Shown here one piece after another: positions 2,167 to 11,792 of a stretch of 64,000 bases of DNA. Origin of the DNA: Myxococcales bacterium. Lineage in GTDB: Bacteria; Myxococcota_A; Bradymonadia; REDH01. The stretch is taken from contig CANMDT010000001.1 of the NCBI GenBank assembly GCA_947496715.1, forward strand, positions 30,799 to 94,798. Reading direction: 5' to 3'. Position numbers and translations under genes: made by a program. Numbering within the stretch: position 1 is the stretch's first letter; the number at the start of each line of letters is the position of its first letter. The notes under the pieces were generated by a model, which worked only from the letters and a program-made list of their open reading frames with translations, was not told the DNA's origin and ran no database searches.

Positions 2167-2407
2167 GCCAACAGGCAGCCGACGACGCTGCACTTGTCAC
2201 ACGCGGGTGACGCAAGCGGGAGGCAGCCCTAGAACACTCCGGGCTGCGACAGTCGGCGCGCAGACGGCGACAGAGACCGCGCCTATCTCGCCCGGCTCCG
2301 TTCCAGCGGGAGACCCTGCGATCGTGACAATTCGGAGACATCCGACGCCTCTGCTGCTACCTTCAGCGCTCCGGTAACTCCCTCCCTTGTACCCAGCAGC
2401 GGCACCC

Positions 2408-3928
2408 ATGCGCAGGCTCCTTCAGCACCCCCTCCTCCTCGCGGCCATGCTCAGCCTCTGCCTGGCTGGCTGCAGCAGCGACAAGAACGCCGCGGTCGGT
2501 AGCGATACCGCCACCGACGGCTCCGCTGCGGCGGATAGCGGCTCCGGCGAAGGGAGCGGCTCCGGCGACACCGGCAGCAGCGGCAGCGCAGACGACACCA
2601 CCGCAGACGCAGAGACCACGGCCCCCCTCTACGAGCGGCAATACCCGCTCACAGAGACCTTCCCCGCCCCCGCGGGCAAGGTCTGGCGCCGCTCCATCGT
2701 CCACCTCCACTCCACCCACTCGCACGACGCCTGCGACGGCAACCCGCGGGTCGACGGCCAGTACAACTTTGCCTGCCTCGCCAGCCTGCGCGCAGCGCTC
2801 TGCAAGACCCGCATCGACGTCGCCAACCTCACCGACCACCCCGACCTCTTCGCCGAGACCCCCTGGCCCGATACGCTCCTCTTCGACCCCGCCACCGACG
2901 AGCTCGTGACCGACGCCGACGGACGCCGCTACAACCAGATGCGCTGCCCGGACGGCTTCGTCGTCACCATCACCGCCGGCATGGAGTCGGCACTCATGCC
3001 CATCCAGTTCCGCGGCCCCCTCTCCGAGGATGCGGAGCAGAACAAGACGCTGCTCAGCGGCAGCGACGGCGTCGCCATGACGCGCTTCCGCGACGCAGGC
3101 GCCCTCGCCTGGGTTGCCCACACCGAGTCCAAGACACTCGAAGAGCTCGATGACCTCAACGTCGGCGGTCTCGAGATCTACAACCTCCACGCCAACATCG
3201 ACCCAAAAATCCGACCGCTCCTCGGCCTCGATCCCTTCGGCTTTGCAGGCTCCGTCTTCCCCTTCATCGGCGGCGGAACCCGCGCCAATGCCGACTTCGC
3301 CCTGCTCGGCTTTCTTGCCCCCAACCAGAACGCGCTCGACAAGTGGGCAACCGTCAACATGACCCGACTTGTCGTCGGTACAGGCGGCACCGACGCGCAC
3401 GAGAACACGCTCCCGCAGATTGCCACCGACGGTGAGCGCATGGACAGCTACCGCCGCATGATCGGCTGGTTTGCGAACTACGTTCTGGCGGAGGACGACT
3501 CCTTCGCCGCCTACCGCACCGCGCTCGCCACAGGCCGCAGCTTCGTAGGATTCGACACGCTCGGCAGCCCAGCCGGCTTTGATGCAGCCGCCTTCGACGC
3601 CGCAGGCAGCCGCTACGAGATGGGCTCCTCCTTCCTCCCGACGGAGGGCGCATACATCCAGGCAACGGTGCCGCAGATCAGCACGCCGGAAGGTGGCGAC
3701 GCAGCAATCCGCACCCTCCTCTTCCGCTCGACAGGAACCACCTGGGAACAGGTCGGCGAGGCCGGCGTCGGCGAGGTCCGGTTCCCCATCAGCGAGCCCG
3801 GTATCTACCGTGTCGAGGTCCGCATGACCCCCACGCACCTCCTCCCCTTCCTCGAGCGGCTCGGACGCCTCGCGAGCAACGAACTGCCCTGGATCTATGG
3901 CAACCCGTTCCGGCTCGTCGCGCCCTAG
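2408..3928 (+). CDS. PHP-domain-like metal-dependent phosphoesterase, predicted lipoprotein
   Basis: ATG at 2408 gives MRRLLQHPLLLAAMLSLCLAGC (lipobox), then a Ser/Gly/Asp linker, then SIVHLHSTHSHD...DVANLTDHPDLF (PHP-like His motifs). Confidence 0.7.
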   Translation: MRRLLQHPLLLAAMLSLCLAGCSSDKNAAVGSDTATDGSAAADSGSGEGSGSGDTGSSGSADDTTADAETTAPLYERQYPLTETFPAPAGKVWRRSIVHLHSTHSHDACDGNPRVDGQYNFACLASLRAALCKTRIDVANLTDHPDLFAETPWPDTLLFDPATDELVTDADGRRYNQMRCPDGFVVTITAGMESALMPIQFRGPLSEDAEQNKTLLSGSDGVAMTRFRDAGALAWVAHTESKTLEELDDLNVGGLEIYNLHANIDPKIRPLLGLDPFGFAGSVFPFIGGGTRANADFALLGFLAPNQNALDKWATVNMTRLVVGTGGTDAHENTLPQIATDGERMDSYRRMIGWFANYVLAEDDSFAAYRTALATGRSFVGFDTLGSPAGFDAAAFDAAGSRYEMGSSFLPTEGAYIQATVPQISTPEGGDAAIRTLLFRSTGTTWEQVGEAGVGEVRFPISEPGIYRVEVRMTPTHLLPFLERLGRLASNELPWIYGNPFRLVAP

Positions 3929-3931
3929 CCC

Positions 3932-5002
3932 CTACGCGTCTTTGATGAACTCCACGATCTGACGCAGCTCGGGCTCCGCGCGCATCGCTGCATCTATGAG
4001 TCGTGGGTCGAAGGCGGAGCCGGCCTCCAGGCGGAGTTGCGACATTGCCTCCCCCCACGCCAGACGAGCGCGGTAACTCCGCGGCGCCGTCATCGCGTCC
4101 AGCGCATCGGCGATCGCTGCCACGCGGCCCTCCAGCGGAATCGCCTCTCCCTGCAATCCGTGCGGATAGCCCCCACCATCCCATCGCTCGTGGTGAGACC
4201 GCGCCATGCGCACCGCCGAGTCATCGGCGAGCGCACCGCCACGCGCGAGCAGCCTGGCCCCCGCCTCGCAGTGACCGCGCATCCGCGAGACCTCCTCCGC
4301 GGTCCAGACCCCAGCCTCCAACCGGAGCGCACCGACCATCTCGATCATCCCGATGTCGTGCCACGGTGAAGCTCTGCGAATCCCCTCAACCTCCGTCGGT
4401 GTGCAGCCTGCCGACGCAGCGATGGTGACAGCATACCGTGCGAACCGATCGCCATGCATCGAGCCGCTCTCCACGCCGCCCTCTATGCCACTGGCCACCG
4501 AGAGGGCATGCGCCTCGTAGACCGTCCGCTGCGACTCCATCGCGCTGGCCAGCAGCTCCTCCTTGTTGCGCGACGCAAACCACTGGCCCGTACCGGTCGC
4601 GCCGCCGCTCCGAAGCGCCGACCGCAGCCCGCGCATCTCCGACGACTTCCGCATCGCGATCTCCACCGTGCAGATGAGCAGAGAGGGCTCGAACGGTTTG
4701 ATGACCAAGCCGTGGATACCGCCGCGGACAAGCTGTTCCAGCACCTCCAGCTCGCTCTCCGCGGTCATCATCACTACGGGCGGCGCATCGAGATCGTCCC
4801 GCAGCGCAGCCACCAGCACATCGCCGTCTTGCCCCTTCATGCGCAGGTCGCTCACCACAACATCCAGCAGGCTCGATCCGATGAAGGCCAGCGCGCTCGC
4901 CACATCGTTGCGAACCGTCACCGCGTGACCTCGACGCCGCAACAGCAGCGCCACAAGATCTGCAACCAGCGTGTCATTATCGACGACCAGTATTCTACCC
5001 AC
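3932..5002 (-). CDS. Response regulator with C-terminal HD-GYP domain
   Basis: Receiver RILVVDNDTLVADL..VVVSDLRMKGQDG..VIKPF; HD-GYP motifs WHDIGM and HHERWDGGGYPHGL. Likely GTG start at 5002 preceded by GGGAG; the ORF track extends to 5098. Confidence 0.8.
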   Translation of the reverse strand: MGRILVVDNDTLVADLVALLLRRRGHAVTVRNDVASALAFIGSSLLDVVVSDLRMKGQDGDVLVAALRDDLDAPPVVMMTAESELEVLEQLVRGGIHGLVIKPFEPSLLICTVEIAMRKSSEMRGLRSALRSGGATGTGQWFASRNKEELLASAMESQRTVYEAHALSVASGIEGGVESGSMHGDRFARYAVTIAASAGCTPTEVEGIRRASPWHDIGMIEMVGALRLEAGVWTAEEVSRMRGHCEAGARLLARGGALADDSAVRMARSHHERWDGGGYPHGLQGEAIPLEGRVAAIADALDAMTAPRSYRARLAWGEAMSQLRLEAGSAFDPRLIDAAMRAEPELRQIVEFIKDA

Positions 5003-5149
5003 GACTGCCGCTCCCTTGCTTGCTCGACTGCCTCTCTCGCCTGACGACTCTACCACCAGTTTTCCGATCGGCAAAACGCGGAACGCGCTCGTTGACACCC
5101 GAGCTTTTTTGTCGCAAGTCGGGATCGTTACGATCTTGGGAGCCTCTTC

Positions 5150-6370
5150 ATGCTCGACACCACCTCACTCCACGCATCGATGCGGGATCTCGGTCTCGAA
5201 CCGGTGATCTGCCGCCGCGTGCTGATCGTGGACGACGAACCGGCACTCGTCGAGACCCTCGAAGGGCTCCTCGAGGACCACTTCGACGTCATCACCGCCT
5301 CCGGCGGGCGAGACGCACTCCGCCAGCTCGAGGCCGGCGATATCGTCGACGTGATCGTCACAGACCAGCGCATGCCCGGCATGCTCGGTGTCGACTTCCT
5401 CGAAGAGGCCTCTAAGCGGCTCCCCGACACCATCCGCATGGTCGTCACCGCCTACGCCGACGTCGAGCCCATCATCGACGCCATCAACCGCGGAGCCGCC
5501 TACCGCTTTCTCTCCAAGCCCTACAACGCCGATGAGCTCCGCGCCGCCATCTCAGAGGGCATGCAGCTCAAAGCGGCGCGCACCTCGCTCGGCCACCTCA
5601 TGGCCGCCCTCGAGACCCGCCGCAACGACATCGAAACCGCGCTCGATGAGCTCCGCGCCGCCCAAGACCAGCTCGTCGCCGCAGAGCGGCTCACCACCTT
5701 GGGCAAGATGACCGCCGGCATCGCGCACGACATCCGCAACCAGCTCGCGGGCATGCGTGTCATGCTCTCGCTGCTGCAAGGCTCCGGCGCAGAGTCTTTC
5801 CTCCACGAACCCACCAAGCGAGCCGTCGCCTCGCTCGACCACCTCTCCAGACTCGTCAACGAGGCACAGGAATTCGCCAGGGCCGACAGTGGCGCGCTGC
5901 AGCGCCTCCGCGTCGACCCACGCGAACTCATCGCAGACACGCTCGTCCTCTGGCGCGCCGAAAACACCGCCGCCACGGAGCTGGAGGTCGAACTCGACGA
6001 CAGCCTTACCTGGCTCACCGTCGATCCACTGCGCGTCACCCAGGGCCTCCTCGTCCTGCTCCGCAACGCAGCGCGCGCCAATCGCGACGATGCCACCGTC
6101 GCCCTCCGTGTTGCCCGCAGCGGGGCCGCGCGTCACGGCGTCCTCTTCTCCGTCATCGACCGCGGCGACGGTATGGACGCAGATACCCTGGCACGCGCCT
6201 CCGAGCCCTTCTTCTCAGCCTTCGACCCGCCATCGCTCGGGCTCGGACTCGAGGTCGCACGACTCGTCGCCACCTCGCATGCCGGCAGCCTCGAAATCAC
6301 CTCATCGCCAGGCCTCGGTACCACCGCCTCGCTCCTGCTCGCCGATGCCGACGGAGGCACACATGGCTAG
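5150..6370 (+). CDS. Receiver domain fused to histidine kinase (PhcQ/PhcR-like architecture)
   Basis: RVLIVDDEPALVETL..VIVTDQRMPG..FLSKPY, then H-box AERLTTLGKMTAGIAHDIRNQLAGM and a C-terminal HATPase DRGDGMD..GLGLGLEVARL. Confidence 0.85.
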   Translation: MLDTTSLHASMRDLGLEPVICRRVLIVDDEPALVETLEGLLEDHFDVITASGGRDALRQLEAGDIVDVIVTDQRMPGMLGVDFLEEASKRLPDTIRMVVTAYADVEPIIDAINRGAAYRFLSKPYNADELRAAISEGMQLKAARTSLGHLMAALETRRNDIETALDELRAAQDQLVAAERLTTLGKMTAGIAHDIRNQLAGMRVMLSLLQGSGAESFLHEPTKRAVASLDHLSRLVNEAQEFARADSGALQRLRVDPRELIADTLVLWRAENTAATELEVELDDSLTWLTVDPLRVTQGLLVLLRNAARANRDDATVALRVARSGAARHGVLFSVIDRGDGMDADTLARASEPFFSAFDPPSLGLGLEVARLVATSHAGSLEITSSPGLGTTASLLLADADGGTHG

Positions 6371-7538
6371 CAGCTTCGCGTCGCAGTCCGGCCTGCTCGA
6401 CCGCTTCCGCGCACCGCTCCGCGTCTGGGTATCACGCGCCCTCTCCGCCCACCTCCCCTCCCTTTCTGCAGCGCTGGGCGACGATGCCGAGGTACACGCG
6501 CTGGTCGATGGCGCGCTGCCGCCCAGCATGGGTCCCGCCGTCCTCCTCGCCGCACCCTCCGACCTCGCCCCCTCCAACGAGCCGGTCCTGCGCGAGCTCG
6601 TTCAGGCCGCCGAGCCCGGACGCCTCGTGCTCTACGGCGGCGAGCAAGACAGAGCCGTCCTCCTCACCGCCATCAACCACTGGCGCGTCTTCCGGCTCAT
6701 CCCCTCCATCACAGGGCTCCCGGCCGTCGTCGACGCCATCCAGAAGGCCCACGAGACCACCGAAATGGAGCTCGCGCTCGATTTCGGCATCCGCGACCTC
6801 GCCCAGCAGAACGAACACCTCGGACGCACCCTCGAGCGCCTGCAGCGCACCCGCGGGCAGCTCCTCCACGCAGAGCGGCTCACCACCCTCGGCCGGCTCA
6901 CCACCGGCCTCGGCCAGGCCCTCGACTCCCACCGCGTCGCCACCGACGATCTCTCTGCTGCCAGCAAGCGCATCACGCTCGACGCCGAACTCCTCGATGT
7001 CGTCGAGCGAACCCTCGAAGGCGGTCGCGCACTCGATTCGCTCCTCAGCGATCTCCTCTACTTCGCCGAAAACCGCGAGCGCCCCCTCCACCTCGCACAC
7101 CACGACGCAGACGCCATCGCCGCTGCCGCGCTCAGGCTTGCCGAGGTCGACCCCGTCTCGCGCAAGCGAAACATCTCCATCTCGCTCCGTTCCGGCAGCT
7201 TCGTCTGCGTTGACCGATACGCCATCTACCAGGTCCTCATCAACCTCCTCCGCAACGCCATGCAGGCGACCGAGGACGGCGGCACCATCGAACTCAACGC
7301 TCGCCTCATCGACGGCGAAGTTGTCTTCGAGGTTATCGACAACGGCACTGGTATGTCGCCCGACACCCAGGCCCGCCTCTTCGAACCCTTCTTCACCACC
7401 AAAGGCCGTGACGGACTGGGGCTCGGACTCCGCGTCTCGCGCCTCACAGTCGAGCGCCACGGCGGACGCATGGAGTGCCAGTCCACCCCCGGAACTGGCT
7501 CCACCTTCCGCCTCTTCCTGCCCATCAGCGCCCACTGA
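6363..7538 (+). CDS. Degenerate receiver-histidine kinase paralogue (ATPase domain intact, phospho-acceptor His absent)
   Basis: ATG at 6363 overlaps the previous stop. H-box region reads AERLTTLGRLTTGLGQALDSHRVA; HATPase motifs NLLRNAMQA, DNGTGM, GLGLGLRVSRL are intact. Confidence 0.75.
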   Translation: MASSFASQSGLLDRFRAPLRVWVSRALSAHLPSLSAALGDDAEVHALVDGALPPSMGPAVLLAAPSDLAPSNEPVLRELVQAAEPGRLVLYGGEQDRAVLLTAINHWRVFRLIPSITGLPAVVDAIQKAHETTEMELALDFGIRDLAQQNEHLGRTLERLQRTRGQLLHAERLTTLGRLTTGLGQALDSHRVATDDLSAASKRITLDAELLDVVERTLEGGRALDSLLSDLLYFAENRERPLHLAHHDADAIAAAALRLAEVDPVSRKRNISISLRSGSFVCVDRYAIYQVLINLLRNAMQATEDGGTIELNARLIDGEVVFEVIDNGTGMSPDTQARLFEPFFTTKGRDGLGLGLRVSRLTVERHGGRMECQSTPGTGSTFRLFLPISAH

Positions 7539-7625
7539 CCAGCGGCCCGCGCCGAACGGTCAAAACTTGGGTTCCTCTGTCCGCATCGCCTAGTCTGCTG
7601 ACTCTCACACGCAAGGGGTCTGCAG

Positions 7626-9098
7626 ATGTCCAAGAAGAAGCAATACGACGACCTCTACGGTGGCGTTGGCCGAGCGATGAACTTTCGCGCCAAGCGCGTC
7701 CTCGCCCGAGAGGTAGCCGATCTGGACGGCTTCGACCTCACCGTCGACGGCAAGCCCGCACAGGTCCACGACCTCGCCATGAGCGGTCTCTCCTTTCACA
7801 CGCCGCCCGCCGACTCCTCGGCCGTCGGAGATGCCGTCGAACTCCGCGTCTGCTTCGCCGAACAGGTCATCTTCGAGGGCGCTGCACGCGTCGCACGCAT
7901 CGAAGACCTCGGCCGCAGCCGGCGCATCGCCGTTCAGCTCCTCACAGGCTTCCTCGACCTGCCGGCCATCCGCCGGGCCGACGAAGATCGCACCCTCCAA
8001 CTGCGGCTCGGCACCGGCGCAGACAAGGTCCGAGACAAGGTCCCTGCCGACTTCCGCGAGGTCAACGAGCACGCCGCTTTTTTCCTTGCCCACCACCGCC
8101 GCCTCCTCGACGAGACCGAAAACCGCTACCGCGAGCAGGGTGCCAACGGTCGCGAACTCATCGACAGGCTCGTCCAGCAGGCCTCCGATGCCATGCGACC
8201 CGAGTGGCTCGCCATCTCGAGCCGCGCCGGCGAGATCGCCCGCCCCTACCTTGAAGACACTGAGACCCGCGCCGCGATGAAGGCCTATGTAGAGACCCTC
8301 ATCACTTCGCAGCTCCTCGATGTTCCCATCGTCTCTCGCGCCTATACCAAGCCCCTCGGCTACGCTGGCGACTACCAGGTAATGAACCTCATCTTCCGCA
8401 ACGCCTACGAAGGCCGCACGGTCTTCTCACGCGTGATCAACAAGCTCTTCGTCGAGGAGTCCATCGCCGAAGGCGCCCGCGCGAGGCTCGAACTTCTCAA
8501 GAAAATCTATGCCGACGAGCTCGACCGGCGAACCGCCCTCGGAGCCACCGAGCCCTTCCGGATCATGAGCCTCGGCTGCGGCCCCGCCAAAGAGGTCTCC
8601 GACTTCGCCGACGGCCCCGATGCCTGGCCAACCCCCATCCACTGGACCCTCCTCGACCAGGACGAGCAGGTGCTCTCGCTCGCCTACAGCGAGTCCTTCA
8701 AGCGACTCACCGCACGCCGTGATGGAAGCTCCGTCCGCTGCCTCTACATGTCCTTCCAGCAGCTCATCGCAGACCCCGAAGGCTCGTTCACCGAAGAGTC
8801 CCACGACCTCGTCTACGCCTCCGGGCTCTACGACTACCTCCGCCAAAACCGGGCGAGGGAGCTCACCCGTGCCCTCTACGACAAGACCTCTCCTGGCGGT
8901 CTCTGCATCATCGCCAATGGAGCCGCCCCCTCCAAGTCGCTCTGGCCCACAGAGTTCATCCTCGACTGGACACTCATCTACCGCACCGAGGCAGAGATGC
9001 GCGACATCGCCGCAGCACTCCCCGCTGATGCAGAGGTCGAGTTCACTGCGGAGCGCGAAGGCGCCTTCTCCTTCCTCATCGCCCGCAAGCCTGGCTAG
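7626..9098 (+). CDS. PilZ domain - class I SAM-dependent methyltransferase fusion (PhcB/EF methyltransferase-like)
   Basis: N-terminal PilZ-like RVLAR...DLAMSGLSF; C-terminal YTKPLGYAGDYQVMNLIFRNAYEG...FRIMSLGCGPAKEVSDF resembling the extracellular-factor methyltransferase family. Confidence 0.7.
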   Translation: MSKKKQYDDLYGGVGRAMNFRAKRVLAREVADLDGFDLTVDGKPAQVHDLAMSGLSFHTPPADSSAVGDAVELRVCFAEQVIFEGAARVARIEDLGRSRRIAVQLLTGFLDLPAIRRADEDRTLQLRLGTGADKVRDKVPADFREVNEHAAFFLAHHRRLLDETENRYREQGANGRELIDRLVQQASDAMRPEWLAISSRAGEIARPYLEDTETRAAMKAYVETLITSQLLDVPIVSRAYTKPLGYAGDYQVMNLIFRNAYEGRTVFSRVINKLFVEESIAEGARARLELLKKIYADELDRRTALGATEPFRIMSLGCGPAKEVSDFADGPDAWPTPIHWTLLDQDEQVLSLAYSESFKRLTARRDGSSVRCLYMSFQQLIADPEGSFTEESHDLVYASGLYDYLRQNRARELTRALYDKTSPGGLCIIANGAAPSKSLWPTEFILDWTLIYRTEAEMRDIAAALPADAEVEFTAEREGAFSFLIARKPG

Positions 9099-9101
9099 CC
9101 C

Positions 9102-11792
9102 ATGCCGCAAGCCACCGCCTCCTACCTCGTCGTCCCTGCCCTCGCGGACGCACCCCTCAGTCTCACCGACGAGGAGCAGGAGGAGTTTCGGCGTCAATCA
9201 CGGGGCATCACCAAGGCTGCACTCCAGACCGAGGCCTGGCTCGCCTTCTTCCTCATTCCCTGCTTTGGCATCCTCGATTGGGTCGTGCTGCCCGACTACT
9301 TCGGCACCTTCATGCTGCTCAGGCTCGCAGCAAGCCTCGTCTCACTCGCCACCGCCATCGCATGCCGGTCGCAGAGCGACTTCGTGCTCCGACACATCGA
9401 AACCATCTCCATCGCCTTCCACGTGAGCATCACCTCCGCCATCGCCACCATGTGCTGGTTCGATGGCGGACTCGACTCGCCCTATTACGCTGGAATGGTC
9501 CTCGTCTACCTCGGCTTCGGCCACTTCCAGCTCATGCCGCTGGCCAAGGCCGTTCTTGTCCCGGTCCTCAGCTACATCATCTACATTGCACCCGCACTCT
9601 CGGGAACGACCCACATCGCTTCGCCCGCCTCGGCCATCAACAACCAGTTCTTCCTCGTCTCCTTCGGCTTCGTAACCGTCGTCTCCTGCAACCAGAAACT
9701 CCGACTCCAGATGCGGCAGTTCCTGACCAACCGCAGCCTCGACCTCGCACGCACCGAGGCCGAGCGCGCCAACGAGAAGCTCAAGCAGCTCGACAGGATG
9801 AAGTCCCAGTTCTTCGCCAACATCACCCACGAGCTACGTACCCCGCTCACCATGATCCTCGCACCCGTCGAGTCAGCGAACGACGGCGCGCGCGGCGTTG
9901 TCCCCGCCCACCTCGCACCCACGCTCAAGGATGTCTGGCGCAACGGACTCAAGCTCCTCAAACTCATCAACGACCTCCTCGACTTCTCCAAACTCGAAGA
10001 GGGCTTCGCACGCCTCCGCATCGACGAAACAGACCTCCCCGTCTTCGTCCGACAGATCACCGGCTACGCAGCAGACATGGCCGCCAGAAAGGAGATCACC
10101 CTCTCCTTCAACATCGCAGCGGACCCCGGCACGATGCACCTCGACCATGAGAAGCTCGAGCGAATCGTCGTCAACCTCGTAGACAACGCCCTCAAGTTCA
10201 CCCCCATCGCGGGCTCCGTCGAAGTCACCATCGACTGCTCTCCCACCCACGCCTTTGTCCGCGTCAAAGACAACGGCATCGGCATCGCACCCGAAGCACT
10301 CGACCGCGTCTTCGAGCGCTTCACACAGGCGGACGGCTCCATCCATCGCCAGTTCGGTGGCACGGGAATCGGACTCGCCTTCGCCCGTGAACTCGCCCGC
10401 CTCCACGGCGGAGACATCTCCGTTACGAGCGAACCTGGCCACGGCTCCGTCTTCACACTCAGCCTCCGGCGCGGGCGTGACCACTACGACCCCAATCTCA
10501 TGGACCGGCGCAAAAATGCCGCCCCTGCCGGAGCAGCCATCCGCGGCGACGACGCCGGACCCGCAGAGTGGGCACGCCACCTCACCGAGCGTTTCGACTA
10601 CAAGTTCCAAGGCATCGACGAGGCCACCGAACGCCGTGCCGTCCCCCGCTCCGACGACGAAGGAAAAACCAGCAAGGTCCTCATCGTCGAAGACAACCCC
10701 GACATCCTGCGACTCCTTAACCTCGAACTCTCCGTCGAGCACTCCGTCTACGTCGCCAAGGATGGGCGCCAGGGCATCGAACTCGCACTTCGCGAACAGC
10801 CTGATGTCATCCTCACAGACTTCATGATGCCCGAGGTTGACGGACTCACCCTCATCCGAACCCTGCGCGCCGAGAGCCGCACCGCAGACATCCCCATCAT
10901 CATGCTCACCGCCAAAGGCGATGTAGAAGACCGCCTCGCAGCCGCAGAGGCCGGCGCAGACCTCTACCTCTCAAAGCCCTTCAGCACCCGTGAAGTCCGC
11001 GCCGCCGTCAACGCCCAGCTCAAGCGCCGCGGACGCCAGGTCGGCAACATCATCCGCGCACAGGTTCAGAGCCTCGAGCTCATCTCGGCCAGCCTCGCGC
11101 ACGAGATCCACAACCCGCTCGCCTACATCAAAAACGCCAACACCATCGTCACCGAAAACATCGAAAAACTGCTGCGCATCATCGCAGATCCGGCCCTCTC
11201 CGACGAAGAGAAAACCAAGCGTATCGAAGCAATCCGAAACAGGCTCGGCCGCTCCACCACCATCGCCGATCAGGGCGTCGAACGCATCTCCCAGATCGTC
11301 GACCTCGTCCGCCGCTACGCACGCGCCGGCTACAGCCCCGACCCCATCTCCTTCTCCATCGACGACTCCCTCCAAGACGTCCTCAGGCTCATCCACAGGC
11401 CGCACGACAGCGTCCTACTCCACGCCGAGCTCGAAGCCGGCGATGCACTCATCCGCGTCCGACCCGAAGAGCTCCATCTCGTCTGCCGCAACCTCATCCA
11501 GAACGCCGTCGAAGCCATCGGCGAACGGGGCGACGTCTGGATTGTCGCCAAACGCGAAAATGACGACATCACCATTGCCATCCGCGACAACGGACCCGGC
11601 ATCAACCGCGAGCACATGGCCCGCATCTTCACCCCCTTCTTCTCCACCAAGGAGACGGGCAAGGGCATGGGAATCGGCCTCTCCATCGCCTTCCAGATCG
11701 TCAACAATGCCGGCGGCTCCATCGAGGTCGCCAGCACCCTCGGAGAGGGAGCCACCTTCACCGTACGCATCCCGCTGATCCGTCACGCCTAG
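9102..11792 (+). CDS. Multi-TM hybrid sensor: TM region - histidine kinase - receiver - second histidine kinase
   Basis: Hydrophobic N-terminus; H-box 1 FFANITHELRTPLTMI; receiver KVLIVEDNPDILRLL..ILTDFMMPEVDG..YLSKPFS; H-box 2 SASLAHEIHNPLAYIKN; two HATPase domains. Confidence 0.85.
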   Translation: MPQATASYLVVPALADAPLSLTDEEQEEFRRQSRGITKAALQTEAWLAFFLIPCFGILDWVVLPDYFGTFMLLRLAASLVSLATAIACRSQSDFVLRHIETISIAFHVSITSAIATMCWFDGGLDSPYYAGMVLVYLGFGHFQLMPLAKAVLVPVLSYIIYIAPALSGTTHIASPASAINNQFFLVSFGFVTVVSCNQKLRLQMRQFLTNRSLDLARTEAERANEKLKQLDRMKSQFFANITHELRTPLTMILAPVESANDGARGVVPAHLAPTLKDVWRNGLKLLKLINDLLDFSKLEEGFARLRIDETDLPVFVRQITGYAADMAARKEITLSFNIAADPGTMHLDHEKLERIVVNLVDNALKFTPIAGSVEVTIDCSPTHAFVRVKDNGIGIAPEALDRVFERFTQADGSIHRQFGGTGIGLAFARELARLHGGDISVTSEPGHGSVFTLSLRRGRDHYDPNLMDRRKNAAPAGAAIRGDDAGPAEWARHLTERFDYKFQGIDEATERRAVPRSDDEGKTSKVLIVEDNPDILRLLNLELSVEHSVYVAKDGRQGIELALREQPDVILTDFMMPEVDGLTLIRTLRAESRTADIPIIMLTAKGDVEDRLAAAEAGADLYLSKPFSTREVRAAVNAQLKRRGRQVGNIIRAQVQSLELISASLAHEIHNPLAYIKNANTIVTENIEKLLRIIADPALSDEEKTKRIEAIRNRLGRSTTIADQGVERISQIVDLVRRYARAGYSPDPISFSIDDSLQDVLRLIHRPHDSVLLHAELEAGDALIRVRPEELHLVCRNLIQNAVEAIGERGDVWIVAKRENDDITIAIRDNGPGINREHMARIFTPFFSTKETGKGMGIGLSIAFQIVNNAGGSIEVASTLGEGATFTVRIPLIRHA

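Follow-up and report, generated by a model that had tools for sequence, protein, structure and literature searches.

A PhcB-family methyltransferase beside a PhcS-type hybrid kinase: a putative Phc-like signalling cassette in Myxococcota_A

What might a tight cluster of signalling genes, one of them a methyltransferase headed by a PilZ-type domain, do together in a member of the Myxococcota_A? The cluster lies at positions 3932-11792 of a 64,000-nucleotide stretch of DNA (the window) from a Myxococcales bacterium (GCA_947496715.1, contig CANMDT010000001.1), and its genes are named here by their first coordinate. An earlier interpretation made from the letters alone (the sequence-only reading) had proposed a rearranged island of the Phc quorum-sensing type, known from the phcBSRQ locus of Ralstonia and Cupriavidus, wired to cyclic di-GMP (c-di-GMP). 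We consider it probable that the genes at 5150-11792 form a cassette for Phc-type signalling between cells, comprising a c-di-GMP-responsive fatty acid methyl-ester synthase, its receptor and a relay. By profile homology, 7626 is a PhcB-family methyltransferase and candidate signal synthase, and 9102 has a membrane domain of the PhcS receptor-domain family. The genes and domains of the cassette are as follows (HK, histidine kinase; TM, transmembrane; 6TM, six TM helices; SAM, S-adenosylmethionine).

5150-6370, forward strand: soluble REC-HisKA-HATPase protein, PhcR/PhcQ-like (Pfam; D72, H193 and N306 present)
6363-7538, forward strand: degenerate REC-kinase paralogue (Pfam HATPase only; pseudo-receiver without Asp, kinase His replaced by Q)
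7626-9098, forward strand: PilZ-type domain, helical linker and class I SAM methyltransferase, PhcB family
7686-7940, forward strand: PilZ-type N-domain of 7626, residues 21-105 (R21/R24, D49LAMSG54)
8325-9095, forward strand: methyltransferase domain of 7626, residues 234-490 (KPLGYAGDY signature, residues 242-250)
9102-11792, forward strand: 6TM-HK1-REC-HK2 hybrid kinase, PhcS-type receptor (Pfam HisKA-HATPase-REC-HisKA-HATPase; N-terminal membrane helices)
9174-9728, forward strand: 6TM receptor domain of 9102, residues 25-209, with a GGLDSPYYAG motif
10677-11009, forward strand: receiver domain of 9102, phospho-acceptor D573
11049-11786, forward strand: second kinase module (HK2) of 9102, H667

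Synthase, receptor and relay

As Phc reference we used a Ralstonia pickettii locus (L142). A first tblastn search led to a Paraburkholderia plasmid operon with the order methyltransferase, TM-HK, REC, REC, and the genome scan of alignment A1 gave 80 betaproteobacterial loci. The L142 products (methyltransferase, 470; TM-HK, 442; REC-HK, 368; REC, 335 amino acids) can be set beside published lengths of 464-468 for PhcB, 368-374 for PhcR and 336-337 for PhcQ (PMC8578825). Residue 22, where the adaptive change R22C of PhcB delays quorum sensing (PMC6989110), is Arg in 77 of the 80 loci, and the H230 reported for PhcS (PMC11960443) is present in L142. Because the lengths, R22 and H230 agree with the published proteins, L142 is a sound phcBSRQ reference. 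In the Betaproteobacteria, phc clusters are reported to be restricted in their distribution (PMC10653808).

Profile-profile comparison (hhalign) aligned the 7626 family with PhcB over its full length (E=7e-65, 429 columns), and the C-terminal 362 residues, the methyltransferase part, gave E=6.1e-64. Invariant residues, including KPLGYxGD, are common to the window family and PhcB (alignments A1, A2 and A4). The PhcB likeness proposed for 7626, and for its C-terminus in particular, is borne out by these comparisons. Pfam gave only a weak methyltransferase match for 7626, and NCBIfam and PDB sequence searches returned no relative. Myxobacterial kinase models were among the best NCBIfam hits, in keeping with the Myxococcota. 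The best solved fold for its methyltransferase domain was 3ocj (Z 19.8, rmsd [root mean square deviation] 3.2, 252 aligned); Foldseek/VIA searches found only Rossmann methyltransferases, covering residues 233-490, and barely probed the N-domain, so that missing PilZ rows are uninformative. In an unrooted tree of the sampled family, betaproteobacterial phcB and the gene of locus L180 (genome G387) formed one group (support 100/100), nested in a set of 18 rows (97/89), and the window methyltransferase lay on a different branch, the branches being long. The L180 gene is thus the nearest relative of PhcB in the sample; a contig end truncates it in the N-domain. The origin and direction of transfer between phyla are left undecided because the tree is unrooted. 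The nearest methyltransferase to that of the window is the one at L191, with 44% identity.

Conceivably the same kind of synthase-receptor pair uses another signal than a 3-hydroxy fatty acid methyl ester, for instance a different methylated lipid or acid. The identity of ~21-25% between the window methyltransferase and PhcB, and the long branches, speak for such a signal, whereas the invariant residues run through the whole family and hydrolase-methyltransferase variants with MMPL neighbours, described below, point to lipids. We regard this alternative as rather doubtful.

The 6TM domain of 9102 matched PhcS at E=9e-21 over 182 columns (hhalign), with reversed and shuffled controls at 0.024-0.58, which confirms the suspected relation of its N-terminus to PhcS. 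The protein (896 amino acids) has a TM-HK-REC-HK architecture in place of the simple TM-HK of PhcS (~442 amino acids). The sensors that were examined retain the receiver Asp and, in each kinase module, the phospho-acceptor His; two of them have no second kinase. In the L180 sensor, a PhcS match spanning the TM part to HK1 and beyond scored 131 bits and the PhcS kinase core scored 163 bits against the second kinase. The PhcR profile preferred the separate REC-HK family of 5150 (E=2.6e-60) to the sensor C-terminus (1.1e-45). The sequence-only reading had seen in 9102 a fusion of PhcS to PhcR. The PhcS-type receptor domain stands, but the fusion was rejected: the PhcS kinase fits HK2 of L180 best, HK1-REC is extra, and PhcR is closer to the separate REC-HK genes.

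Besides its match to PhcR, the 5150 gene family matched the PhcQ profile (E=3.5e-39). By Pfam, 5150 is a soluble receiver-kinase without a DNA-binding domain, as is PhcR, and on profile evidence it is the PhcR counterpart in the window. The 6363-type paralogue, found in the window's genus (also in genomes G001-G003) and at L191 and L194, has Q, G or S for the phospho-acceptor His and has lost the receiver Asp, with the N and G boxes for ATP binding retained. By these residues the conserved paralogue 6363 lacks a phosphorylatable His and Asp and is degenerate, as first described; it was rejected as PhcQ on this ground, and of the suggested pairing of 5150 and 6363 with PhcQ and PhcR the 5150 part survives. 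Pfam recognised no separate PhcQ-type receiver gene in the operon 5150-11792.

All five open reading frames at 3932-11792 are present in the window's ORF list and translations at the positions used here. The end of 5150 overlaps the start of 6363 by 8 bp, 87 bp precede 7626, and 3 bp separate 7626 from 9102; the genes are as tightly packed as had been noted and, because of the overlap and short gaps, 5150-11792 is probably one operon. Pfam agrees with the domain architectures called earlier in all but two points: it recognises neither a receiver nor a HisKA domain in 6363, and the PilZ match of 7626 is sub-threshold.

Recurrence of the cassette and its variants

The 7626 protein was matched in 34 of 142 relatives' genomes, and the methyltransferase profile at 1e-10 in 99 of 378 genomes sampled from the window's phylum. 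The distribution is patchy: within the family to which the window belongs, two members have no such methyltransferase. A 6TM-sensor gene lies next to or near the methyltransferase in 55 of 60 PilZ-methyltransferase loci; in 43 of the 55, across 16 families, it is exactly TM-HK-REC-HK on the same strand. A same-strand REC-HK gene is also present in 35 loci, and three of the five loci without a sensor stop at a contig edge. The pairing is not due to chance, because it recurs in 55 of the 60 loci. On these counts, the PilZ-methyltransferase with a 6TM-HK-REC-HK sensor, usually with a REC-HK gene, is a phylum-wide cassette. The betaproteobacterial operon, with its split genes, forms one branch within this diversity; the L180 cassette is the best match for PhcS and PhcQ also. 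The neighbourhood is therefore conserved among relatives, and the idea of a rearranged Phc island has to be given up in favour of a set that recurs throughout the phylum. A plasmid of the cyanobacterium Pseudanabaena (L003:5983-8602) carries a Phc-like set as well, a PhcB-family methyltransferase opposite a multi-TM kinase (sensor profile 53.7 bits) and a receiver gene.

Histidine kinases and methyltransferases are common, and an ordinary two-component cluster could stand beside an unrelated methyltransferase with a superficial Phc resemblance. We hold this to be highly improbable, given that the sensor domain and the synthase are both profile-homologous to the same known operon and are co-conserved in 16 families.

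The methyltransferase and the 6TM domain stay together even where the output module differs. At L200 (2855-5188) a Ser/Thr kinase-6TM-GGDEF protein is encoded beside a methyltransferase-family gene, L203 joins the 6TM domain to a SpoIIE phosphatase, and L185, L201 and L202 have a Ser/Thr kinase with a divergent TM domain (26-30 bits). Single chains at L060 (6194-9052), L061 and L206 (6744-9752) contain the 6TM domain, a class III cyclase, a cyclic nucleotide (cNMP)-binding domain and a diverged PhcB-family methyltransferase domain, and are possibly synthase and receptor in one polypeptide.

Sensors away from a PhcB-type gene often adjoin a protein with a PilZ domain, an alpha/beta-hydrolase-like middle and a UbiE-like methyltransferase. 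Large hydrolase-methyltransferase proteins, most with a PilZ match, stand beside PhcS-type hybrid kinases at L213, L215-L219, L221, L225, L229 and L230. MMPL exporter genes adjoin L213 and L217, and the L216 protein has a weak match (E=0.0022) to Acyl_transf_2, which we take to be the LuxD thioesterase family. An 818-amino-acid PilZ protein whose C-terminus is GNAT-like by eye (L220:4695-7151, reverse strand) has sensor and REC-HK genes close by, an arrangement like that of the PilZ-methyltransferase cassette. Another 6TM-domain protein (L222:3951-7940, genome G344) adjoins an AMP-binding (acyl-activating) enzyme instead of a methyltransferase.

The near-constant company of methyltransferase and sensor, and the fusion of a methyltransferase-family domain to a 6TM-cyclase protein, would also be expected of a CheR-like adaptation enzyme that methylates the sensor or relay under c-di-GMP control while the sensor detects an unrelated cue; some family members have weak CheR Pfam matches. 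Against this, the enzyme is closely related to PhcB, to which signal synthesis is assigned in the literature (PMC8578825, PMC6989110), and PhcS has the same receptor domain. Pfam recognised no methylation domain like that of methyl-accepting chemotaxis proteins in the cassette, and the second, PilZ-hydrolase-methyltransferase type beside sensors of this family is easier to reconcile with synthesis of a small molecule. We therefore judge an adaptation enzyme unlikely and prefer a signal synthase.

Links to c-di-GMP

Two features of the locus could connect such a synthase with c-di-GMP, the N-domain of 7626 and the neighbouring gene, which is divergent from 5150 with 51 bp between them:

3932-5098, reverse strand: REC-HD-GYP response regulator (REC-HD_5; Pfam PF00072 2.7e-18, PF13487 7.4e-25)

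The N-domain of 7626 matched the PhcB N-terminus at E=6.9e-6 (probability 84.5%; hhalign), with reversed and shuffled controls at 0.18-0.43. AlphaFold models of the window protein (predicted local distance difference test [pLDDT] 91) and of L142 PhcB (pLDDT 85; N-domain ~75-83) both show six strands, arranged in an identical order. Classical PhcB, to judge from its model, has the same six-stranded PilZ-type N-domain without the ligand motif; [D/N]xSxxG occurs in the first 110 residues of 0 of 80 betaproteobacterial PhcB. Pfam found PilZ in 40 of 56 members of the window family (best 1.7e-9). The 51 phylum members in alignment A2 all have R21, R24 and G54; each has either D or N at position 49, and 46 have S at position 51.

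The HD-GYP residues of 3932 (HxxR, HD, HHE, GYP) are intact in translation, and the protein is a predicted c-di-GMP phosphodiesterase. The PilZ and HD-GYP domains had been read as adding a c-di-GMP input to Phc. The PilZ-type domain is no add-on, as its fold is already in classical PhcB, but the window family keeps a variant ligand motif that PhcB does not. For 3932 the catalytic residues hold up, whereas the gene adjoins a PhcB-type cassette only in G000-G003, the window's genus, and for this reason its wiring to the cassette is suggestive only. Elsewhere, 6TM-HK-REC-HD-GYP forms one protein (L223:4830-7580), and a REC-HD-GYP gene lies directly downstream of a sensor (L225:7583-8713).

In the scheme that we propose, 7626 would produce a diffusible methyl-ester signal by O-methylation of a (3-hydroxy) fatty acid, and c-di-GMP would act on this synthesis through the PilZ-type domain of the protein. 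Within the membrane, the 6TM domain of 9102 would sense the signal and change the activity of HK1 and HK2, and phosphate would pass through the protein's own receiver and to 5150. In the window's genus, phosphate might also reach 3932 and lower c-di-GMP. The 6363 protein, unphosphorylatable but with its ATP site kept, may tune or scaffold the kinases.

Several observations weigh against this scheme. The PilZ match of 7626 (E=0.0058) reaches 17.4 bits against a gathering score of 22.5. Its D49LAMSG54 is a variant of [D/N]xSxxG in which S51 is replaced by Ala, and the family-invariant Arg pair R21/R24 has the non-canonical spacing RxxR, not RxxxR; the window protein also reads R24VLAR28, with RxxxR spacing, beside DLAMSG. 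HK1-REC of 9102 is absent from PhcS, and Pfam found no DNA-binding output in 5150-11792. The classical phcBSRQ operon acts on the LysR regulator PhcA. Two complete loci, L184 and L195, have the methyltransferase without a recognised sensor. That the methyltransferase adjoins 42 of the 44 strongest sensor hits in a list comparison speaks for the scheme, but the figure is partly circular because the sensor model (alignment A3) was built from methyltransferase-linked sensors. The linkage of the HD-GYP gene is genus-level.

The N-domain may then be structural only, as it seemingly is in classical PhcB, with c-di-GMP playing no part and the HD-GYP gene incidental. The motif-less fold of PhcB, the degenerate motif of the window and the genus-level linkage favour this, but every phylum member aligned has kept both arginines and the D/N and G residues, further candidate synthases next to such sensors also have PilZ, and the sensor is repeatedly accompanied by GGDEF or HD-GYP as output or neighbour (L200, L223, L225). 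A purely structural domain is a serious possibility, though we lean towards c-di-GMP-responsive synthesis. A broader picture can be offered tentatively: the phylum may hold PilZ-headed, c-di-GMP-responsive synthases (PhcB-type, hydrolase-methyltransferase and possibly GNAT-like) with one 6TM receptor whose output module is freely interchangeable (kinases, Ser/Thr kinase, cyclase, GGDEF, phosphatase), and betaproteobacterial Phc may derive from this family in simplified form, having lost its c-di-GMP site.

Genes for an aspartokinase-homoserine dehydrogenase, a GHMP kinase and a PALP enzyme (thr genes) begin 62 bp downstream of 11792. Upstream in the window are a protein with two lamin-tail domains (LTD; 109-2166) and an open reading frame without a Pfam match (2387-3928).

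Comparison with known systems

The cassette looks like an ancient and widely distributed cousin of Phc, in a phylum where Phc is apparently undescribed; searches of the open-access literature turned up neither this cassette nor a PhcB with PilZ nor PilZ-methyltransferase quorum sensing in myxobacteria. If the proposed function is right, methyl-ester signalling would be much wider than the Betaproteobacteria, and one form of it would couple production of the signal to c-di-GMP. The role of the unexplained N-domain of PhcB, the site of R22C (PMC6989110), would become testable, and matched pairs of synthase and receptor, differing in their outputs, would be at hand.

Compared with PilZ c-di-GMP receptors (PF07238), the family N-domains match PilZ in the 40 of 56 cases given above and have the Arg pair RxxR where the receptors have RxxxR. 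The alpha-hydroxyketone systems CqsA/CqsS and LqsA/LqsS encode a multi-TM sensor kinase beside the signal synthase, and at this level of gene arrangement the window cassette is like them. Their synthase is a pyridoxal phosphate enzyme, whereas that of the window is a methyltransferase. Lqs is reported to differ from Phc both in its genes and in its signal (PMC10653808).

From Phc itself the window differs in gene order, with REC-HK, HK, methyltransferase and sensor against B-S-R-Q. It keeps a variant PilZ ligand motif and has a TM-HK1-REC-HK2 sensor, a degenerate kinase and an HD-GYP neighbour, with no separate PhcQ gene. The two are alike in a PhcB-family methyltransferase with a six-stranded N-domain, in the PhcS 6TM domain, in a soluble REC-kinase without a DNA-binding domain, and in the tight linkage of their genes.

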